A stretch of 64,000 bases of DNA. Source: Thermaerobacter subterraneus DSM 13965 (GTDB taxonomy: Bacteria; Bacillota; Sulfobacillia; Thermaerobacterales; Thermaerobacteraceae). Position 1 is the first letter of the stretch; each line of letters starts with the position of its first letter. This document shows, one piece after another, positions 21,073-22,367 of the stretch. The stretch is from positions 1,355,890 through 1,419,889 of the forward strand of contig NZ_JH976535.1 in NCBI RefSeq assembly GCF_000183545.2. Reading direction: 5' to 3'. The notes beneath the pieces were generated by a model. The model made no database searches, was not told where the DNA came from, and worked only from the letters and a program-made list of their open reading frames with translations. A program made the position numbers and the translations under genes.

Positions 21073-21303
21073 CTAGGGCAGCGGGCCCGCAGCGGGCCGG
21101 GGCCGGCCCCTGCCAAAGCGCCGGTGCCAGCCGACGATCAGATCGTCCAGGCGGCGGCTGAGTTCGACCACCTGAGGGTCGGCGTAGCCCCGCCGCCGGG
21201 CCAGGCGGTAGAGTTCCCGGCGCATGGCTTCGATCTCCGCCTGGTGCGCAAGCGCCGGCTGCAGGTGTCGCGGCCGCGACCCGGCGGGTCGAGGAGCAGC
21301 CAC
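21073..21303 (-). CDS. Spo0E-like aspartyl-phosphate phosphatase
   Basis: A 76-residue protein. The C-terminal two-thirds matches the Spo0E/YnzD helical hairpin: QAEIEAMRRELYRLARR, then DPQVVELSRRLDDLIVGWHRR. The SxxLDxxI motif of the family is present as SRRLDDLI. Such proteins dephosphorylate Spo0A-P and hold back sporulation. The GTG at 21303 follows GGGAGGTG by 6 bases. Upstream lies a long non-coding region containing phased DnaA-box-like 9-mers. This gene is direct support for a spore-forming host lineage. Confidence 0.82.
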   Translation of the reverse strand: MAAPRPAGSRPRHLQPALAHQAEIEAMRRELYRLARRRGYADPQVVELSRRLDDLIVGWHRRFGRGRPRPAAGPLP

Positions 21304-21457
21304 GGGAAGCACCTCCCACGGGCGAGGAACACCGCCCGCTCGCTGCAGAACCGGGCCGGAGGCCGCCCGCCCTCCCCCTGGGCGCCTCCAGCCCGGCGTG
21401 CAGGCCGCTACCGCCCTGTCCATTCTTGCGCCCTGCTGTCGCTCCTTGTTGACAAGC

Positions 21458-21562
21458 TGTGGGCAACTGTCGATTCCTGGGGATATCGGCCGCCCGGATG
21501 GGGATAACCTGCCCCGGATCTGGGGATGACAAGCCCCTTTTTGTGGATAGGGGAGTGGATAC
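21458..21562 (-). promoter_or_regulatory. Phased cluster of DnaA-box-like 9-mers
   Basis: Read on the minus strand, near-consensus DnaA boxes (TTATCCACA) recur in one orientation. They are TTGCCCACA at 21458-21466, ATATCCCCA at 21478-21486, TTATCCCCA at 21499-21507, TCATCCCCA at 21521-21529 and CTATCCACA at 21542-21550. GTATCCACT at 21554-21562 is a sixth. Each matches 7 or 8 of 9 positions. The first five starts are 20, 21, 22 and 21 bases apart, about two helical turns. The array lies 155-260 bases upstream of the Spo0E-like gene and 340-440 bases upstream of the arginine decarboxylase. DnaA binding is inferred. Confidence 0.5.
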
Positions 21563-21899
21563 CGGGGCGGGGATGCCGGCCGGGATACCGGCCGGGGCCG
21601 AGCCTGCGGCCGGGCAGGGACCGGCACCCCCGGCCCGCCGGCGCCATACCATGGGCGTGAATCGCGCCGGTCCCGGGGAGGGTCAAAGGCCAAAAGGAGG
21701 TGCCGGGCCGGAGCAGGCCAGGGGGTAACTGCCGGGGCGGGCGGCGGGGCGGCCGCAGGCCGGGGACCGCCGGGTGCCGCGGGCTGCTGCCGGCGGTCCC
21801 TCGTGCCCGCCGGCCATCCTGCTGGGCCGCTCGCCCGGCGAGCTCCCGGCGACCCGGGGGCCGTCCCGGGGCCGGCGCCACGGCCGGGAGGTGTTTGGC
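21563..21899. other. Non-coding spacer before the arginine decarboxylase
   Basis: No credible gene. It continues the GGGAT-rich character of the upstream array, including a GCCGGGATACCGGC-like palindromic stretch near 21580. It ends in a strong GGGAGGTG Shine-Dalgarno at 21886-21893. Confidence 0.4.
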
Positions 21900-22367
21900 A
21901 TGTTGCCGGTTCCCAACCGGTTTGCCCTGGTCACGGGCCGGGCGGAGGGCGAGACCCCCCTGACCGCCTTCGATGCGGCGCTGCTCGACGCCGGGGTGGC
22001 CAACGTCAACCTGATCAAGGTCTCAAGCATTCTGCCGCCCCATGCCCAACCGCTGGCCGAACTGGTCCTCCCCCCGGGCGCCCTGGTTCCCATCGCCTAC
22101 GGCCGGCTGGTGTCCGCCGAGCCCGGTACCCGGATCGCGGCGGCCGTCGCCGTGGGACGGGACGAACCCGGCCGGTTCGGCATGATCATGGAGCACACGG
22201 CATATGCCAGTGCCAGCGAGGTGGAAGCGACCATCCGCCGCATGGTGGAGGAGAGCTTCACCATTCGCGGGGGCCGCCCCAGGGAGATCCTGGTGCGTTC
22301 CGTCGAGCACGTGGTCGAGCGGTGTGGCTGCGTCTTCGCCGGGTGTGTCCTCTGGTACGGAGGCTAG
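21900..22367 (+). CDS. pdaD: Pyruvoyl-dependent arginine decarboxylase
   Basis: A 155-residue proenzyme of the PvlArgDC family. The self-cleavage region is NVNLIKVSSILPPHA. Cleavage between Ser42 and Ser43 would give the small beta chain and a pyruvoyl-capped alpha chain. Also typical are YGRLVSAEPGTRIAAAVAVG and the C-terminal GCVFAGCVLWY. The enzyme makes agmatine from arginine for polyamine synthesis. The ATG at 21900 follows GGGAGGTG by 6 bases. No agmatinase or aminopropyltransferase gene is in the window. Confidence 0.9.
   Translation: MLPVPNRFALVTGRAEGETPLTAFDAALLDAGVANVNLIKVSSILPPHAQPLAELVLPPGALVPIAYGRLVSAEPGTRIAAAVAVGRDEPGRFGMIMEHTAYASASEVEATIRRMVEESFTIRGGRPREILVRSVEHVVERCGCVFAGCVLWYGG

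Follow-up and report, generated by a model that had tools for sequence, protein, structure and literature searches.

A helically phased array of DnaA-type boxes beside the putative promoter of a Spo0E-like gene in Thermaerobacter

A 116-bp array of seven DnaA-box-like 9-mers, all in one orientation, lies upstream of a Spo0E-like gene in the source genome (positions 21447–21562, minus strand, of the 64 kb window, the whole stretch of DNA that was analysed). The balance of the evidence leans, though not far, towards binding of DnaA to this helically phased array and, through it, control of the Spo0E-like gene. Judged from its boxes, spacing and surroundings, the array is best read as a DnaA-responsive promoter of a predicted Spo0A~P phosphatase, which would resemble the sda promoter of Bacillus subtilis in its working without being homologous to it.

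Architecture of the array

Five 9-mers in the same orientation, with starts 20, 21, 22 and 21 bp apart, had been reported in a preliminary description of this DNA and lie exactly so, at 21458, 21478, 21499, 21521 and 21542 (Table 1). The sixth box reported after them is present at 21554 (GTATCCACT), and a seventh, TTGTCAACA at 21447, 11 bp from its neighbour, had been overlooked. This promoter-proximal box doubles as a palindrome, TTGTCAACAA (21446–21455); a TGTCGAT lies near it, and the two might make up a Spo0A-type site beside the DnaA-type boxes.

Table 1 Features of the array and its surroundings in the window
Feature	Position	Strand	Remarks
Spo0E-like gene	21073–21303	−	GTG start after ribosome-binding site GGGAGGTG; SRRLD signature
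Possible GC-rich leader hairpin between promoter and gene	21358–21389	−	Kept in four species
Putative sigma-H-type promoter	21422–21446	−	AGGA (21446–21443), N17, GAAT (21425–21422)
Promoter-proximal box TTGTCAACA	21447–21455	−	Abuts AGGA directly; identical in all four species
Box TTGCCCACA	21458–21466	−	11 bp from proximal box; TTGTCCACA in T. marianensis
Box ATATCCCCA	21478–21486	−	20 bp step; TTATCCCCA in G001 and G003
Box TTATCCCCA	21499–21507	−	21 bp step; TTGTCCTCA in G001, TTATCCCCA in G003
Box TCATCCCCA	21521–21529	−	22 bp step; identical in all four species
Box CTATCCACA	21542–21550	−	21 bp step; ATGTCCACA in G001, TCGTCCACA in G003
Extra box-like 9-mer GTATCCACT	21554–21562	−	12 bp step; only in the source species and G002
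Divergent pyruvoyl-dependent arginine decarboxylase (PvlArgDC) gene	21900–22367	+	Pfam PF01862, 4.3e-43; synteny in all four species

Because single degenerate boxes are common (44 with at most two mismatches in the window, against 35 expected), the phased run rather than the number of boxes is the unusual feature. The run comprises five boxes at 20–23 bp steps, or seven if 10–12 bp steps are counted, and none of 300 simulated windows (first-order Markov, with the composition of the window) had a phased run exceeding two boxes, which bears out the earlier judgement that regular two-turn phasing is unlikely to arise by chance. Uniqueness was assessed by a pattern search for the TCCMCA triplet: in the 2.89 Mb source genome (two contigs), TCCMCA-N14..17-TCCMCA-N14..17-TCCMCA matched only at the array, with two overlapping matches, and the reversed control pattern gave none.

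Conservation in Thermaerobacter

The array was compared in four species (the source genome, G000, and G001, which is T. marianensis, G002 and G003), with G000, G001 and G003 representing independent lineages. Six boxes are kept in all four, at steps of 21–22, 21–22, 21–22, 20 and 11 bp, within the invariant gene order PvlArgDC (divergent), array, Spo0E-like gene and HAD hydrolase gene; the array thus stands before every orthologous Spo0E-like gene of the genus compared here, a check that had been proposed for it. Between any two of the three lineages, 48–50 of the 54 box bases (approximately 90%) are identical, whereas in the three outer spacers no more than 14–17 of 36–37 positions (approximately 40%) match. 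The promoter-proximal stretch, from the last TCCCCA box up to and including TTGTCAACAAGGAGCGACA, is conserved as a block, and a search with the 19-mer TTGTCAACAAGGAGCGACA of a set of genome contigs from which near relatives may be missing gave a single match outside the genus, attributable to chance. Other Spo0E-like genes scanned in the class, including a second copy in G003 and the copy in the sister genus (G004), lack the array.

A chance resemblance devoid of function, which the abundance of degenerate single boxes might suggest, is extremely improbable, given that the phased run is absent from the 300 simulated windows and unique in the genome, and that the boxes were kept in three lineages while their spacers diverged; the conservation of the array already refutes it.

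Relation to the replication origin

In the genus, oriC flanks dnaA on either side and contains TTATCCACA, CTATCCACA, TCATCCACA, TTGTCCACG and [CG]TATCAACA, with steps of 11 bp between several of these boxes and some 11 bp-spaced triplets, as well as CTATCAACA/GTATCAACA. In the dnaA–dnaN gap of G000 and G002 the order is TTGTCCCCA-21-TTGTCCACG-11-CTTTCCACA. Origin boxes that differed from the array's 9-mers had been named as evidence that would speak against DnaA; most origin boxes are indeed of the TCCACA type, but TTGTCCCCA and [CG]TATCAACA are also there, in the array-like 21/11 bp spacing. The array (TCCCCA-20-TTGYCCACA-11-TTGTCAACA) and oriC contain a like mixture of variants and combine two-turn with one-turn phasing in the same way.

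A matrix trained on the oriC boxes of the genus alone placed three of its five top-scoring sites in the 64 kb window within the array (CTATCCACA, 16.1; TTGTCAACA, 14.1; TTATCCCCA, 12.6); the remaining array boxes score weakly, at 5.4–8.6. In several of the boxes position 7 is C rather than A, which places them in a weak site class and counts against the DnaA reading. TCCCCA is the consensus of the weak DnaA W-boxes of the Caulobacter oriC (PMC4285127). The boxes are of DnaA type, as the preliminary description had it, and DnaA is the best-supported candidate ligand.

The search for the phased TCCMCA triplet was extended to 154 genomes of the class, irrespective of location. The triplet was found as the array in Thermaerobacter, and elsewhere often in origins, in one operon promoter, and in repeats, mobile elements or coding sequence; several matches of these last three kinds were set aside. 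Matches between dnaA and dnaN occur in G054, G078, G079, G022 and G146, and one upstream of dnaA in G100. The origins of G054, G078 and G079, the second assigned by its likeness to the other two, read TTGTCCACA-18-TTGTCCCCA-22-ATATCCCCA-23 followed by TTGTCCACA or TTATCCACA.

LytTR-type response regulators bind 9-bp direct repeats 21–22 bp apart, with a GTT consensus core. This geometry equals that of the array, and TTTGTCAAC and TGTCGAT beside the array resemble Spo0A boxes, so that the array might bind another regulator, such as Spo0A or a LytTR-type protein, and owe its DnaA-box likeness to convergence. We consider this quite unlikely. The GTT core is missing from the array boxes; the array region lacks an exact TGTCGAA box, near matches to TGTCGAA/TTCGACA being all that was found at the three loci searched (L045, L033 and L035). 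The variation among the boxes (TTR, YTA, TCAACA, TCCCCA) parallels that of the oriC boxes of the species, and the same phased pattern recurs at the oriC of relatives.

Chromosomal position and DnaA titration

The array resembles oriC arrays of bacteria, including those with the Caulobacter W-boxes, in box sequences, in the use of one strand, in spacing (roughly 11 and 21 bp) and in its mixture of strong and weak sites (PMC4285127), but it lies away from dnaA or dnaN, in the half of the chromosome nearer the terminus. With the terminus taken as the point opposite dnaA, it is found at approximately 85–90% of the oriC–terminus distance in G001, G002 and G003.

The preliminary description had offered DnaA titration as an alternative. 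A titration or inactivation site comparable to E. coli datA or the B. subtilis DBC, placed before the Spo0E-like gene by accident, would account for the clustering of strong and weak boxes, which is also seen in the B. subtilis DnaA-box clusters, and for the finding that, outside oriC, no other four-box cluster occurs in the 220 kb surrounding the origin of T. marianensis. Those known clusters likewise lie outside oriC, whereas the array is far from oriC and adjoins, at fixed spacing, a sequence that looks like a promoter, a geometry for which titration has no need, and a site near the terminus is a poor place for early titration. The titration proposal fits less well for these reasons, and we regard it as very unlikely. 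A three-box phased run at L159:10024 is coincidental, lying inside an apparent 16S rRNA gene.

Promoter region and the Spo0E-like gene

The array is adjoined in all four species by AGGA-N17-GAAK, which reads towards the Spo0E-like gene; the −10 element is GAAT in G000 and G002 and GAAG in G001 and G003. The SigH consensus is AGGA/GAAT with a spacer of 17–18 nt (PMC12456013), and AGGA-N17/18-GAAT occurs only twice in the window, counting both strands. The sequence fits this consensus and is a putative sigma-H-type promoter, with the reservation that the motif is short and that two lineages have GAAG. The upstream regions of Thermaerobacter spo0A, used to calibrate the motif, contain no comparable site, so it lacks support from that calibration. 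In the leader that follows, 34 pairs are predicted for the possible hairpin, 4 of them with a compensatory change, a weak signal from four sequences only; an Rfam scan of the leader gave no match.

The Spo0E-like gene starts approximately 145–180 nt from the array. Its identification in the preliminary description is confirmed by a match of its product to Pfam PF09388 (42.1 bits against a cut-off of 23; 8.5e-11), and the SxxxD signature of the family is present in the four orthologues as SRRLD or SRQLD. Thermaerobacter, a heat-loving genus, sporulates (PMC11008173, PMC3035304). Each Thermaerobacter genome encodes one Spo0A_C domain, and a search of seven genomes for Sda (PF08970) found none, although a protein so short may escape detection. 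In B. subtilis, Spo0E dephosphorylates Spo0A~P, and the Thermaerobacter protein is predicted to do the same.

The divergent decarboxylase gene

The main rival target, absent from the preliminary description, is the divergent PvlArgDC gene: the DnaA-bound array would serve polyamine synthesis, or both genes, instead of the Spo0E-like gene alone. The array sits between the two, and in two other families of the class (f7 and f41) similar boxes, oriented alike relative to the decarboxylase, are found before an Orn/Lys/Arg decarboxylase gene that is unrelated to PvlArgDC. However, PvlArgDC lies approximately 180 to 455 bp from the array, depending on the species, while the conserved flank and the promoter motif are on the Spo0E side, and none of 26 PvlArgDC loci scanned outside Thermaerobacter has such an array. 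The Spo0E-like gene is judged the likelier target because the promoter motif points to it, whereas PvlArgDC stands at a varying distance and has an upstream motif of its own; control of PvlArgDC is, in our estimation, unlikely.

That upstream motif, CAC-N17-CATANCATG (window 21625–21652, plus strand), is conserved in all four species and resembles promoters of mother-cell sporulation sigma factors (SigK-type), so that PvlArgDC might be a sporulation gene. Thermaerobacter genomes have two PvlArgDC genes, in the source genome at G000:C1:152158–152616 and at window positions 21900–22367, the latter beside the array.

The element of the other families consists of TTGTCAACA-12-TTATCCCCA-20-TTATCCACA and was found before the Orn/Lys/Arg decarboxylase gene at six f7 and two f41 loci (L117–L120, L125, L127, L129 and L131), with one base of TTGTCAACA changed at L120 (f7) and with CTATCCACA at L131 (f41). 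Its form TGTTGACAA-N3-TGGGGATAA-N11-TGTGGATAA is near-invariant and lies approximately 70–200 bp upstream of the OKR_DC_1 gene (for example, L091:1489–1529). It shares with the array three box sequences, their placement on one strand and similar steps of 12 and 20 bp; it differs in having three boxes only, in the genes downstream and in that no Spo0E-like gene was observed beside it. In f7 the decarboxylase is the first gene of a tmk-darA-holB-ricT-rsmI operon, which makes the replication genes the natural and likelier DnaA target there, and the set is likely a DnaA-controlled replication operon. This weakens the parallel with PvlArgDC. The closest box set outside the genus nevertheless precedes a decarboxylase-tmk-holB operon and not a Spo0E gene, which counts against the Spo0E-like target, and the presence of a decarboxylase at both the Thermaerobacter array locus and the f7 and f41 loci calls for caution in the same regard. 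In T. marianensis the tmk-holB operon is not preceded by an array.

A model for replication–sporulation coupling

In the favoured reading, control of the Spo0E-like gene by DnaA, the protein, probably in its ATP form, would bind the two strong boxes next to the promoter, TTGYCCACA-11-TTGTCAACA, and spread cooperatively, two helical turns per step, across the TCCCCA boxes, which are weaker. An oligomer would thus form on a single face of the helix, immediately upstream of the sigma-H-like −35 element, where it could contact RNA polymerase. Active DnaA, with replication initiating or stalled, would then change, and most likely raise, transcription of the Spo0E-like gene; activation is judged somewhat likelier than repression because the boxes abut the promoter and do not cover it. 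The Spo0E-like protein would act on Spo0A~P as a phosphatase and thereby delay sporulation, so that active DnaA would restrain sporulation by the same logic as at sda.

In B. subtilis, DnaA activates sda, whose promoter region contains several DnaA boxes before a gene that blocks Spo0A activation, and replication is thereby coupled to sporulation (PMC4447404, PMC8203912). The Thermaerobacter locus differs in that its gene is Spo0E-like, of the Spo0A~P phosphatase family PF09388, and not the kinase inhibitor Sda, and in its regularly phased boxes, some of them W-box-like TCCCCA sites, before a promoter of sigma-H-type appearance. The array is thus best regarded as working like the sda promoter while belonging by sequence to the DnaA-box clusters, with a regulated gene of a different family. 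The suggestion of an independently evolved Sda-like link stands as an analogy, with which the failure to find Sda in the genus is in keeping.

DNA replication may directly control spore formation in Thermaerobacter by a previously undescribed route; the literature searched contained no paper joining Spo0E with DnaA and a DnaA box. More tentatively, and with considerable doubt, we envisage an Sda-free coupling in which a DnaA oligomer drives a Spo0A~P phosphatase from a sigma-H promoter, together with a DnaA regulon of the class, marked by TTATCCCCA and TTGTCAACA, that would cover the tmk-holB operon elsewhere. If this coupling exists, checkpoints by which replication restrains sporulation arose on at least two occasions, both with DnaA as the sensor but with different outputs: Sda, an inhibitor of kinases, in Bacillus and a Spo0A~P phosphatase in Thermaerobacter. 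Such a coupling would also explain how a deep-branching spore former with no detectable Sda avoids sporulating during replication. With its two-turn phasing and its strong and weak boxes, the array offers a clean natural test case for DnaA oligomerisation on double-stranded DNA outside oriC.

Other phased TCCCCA sequences

Phased TCCCCA triplets that are conserved between two genera (AAATCCCCA, TTTTCCCCA and TCGTCCCCA) were seen at L092, L093 and L109 (G068 and G073). The triplet at L092 lies beside integrase and transposase genes, and such triplets may be the ends of a mobile element. One further member of the class has a 22-bp tandem repeat with TCCCCA in each unit (G143:C288:3615–3840).
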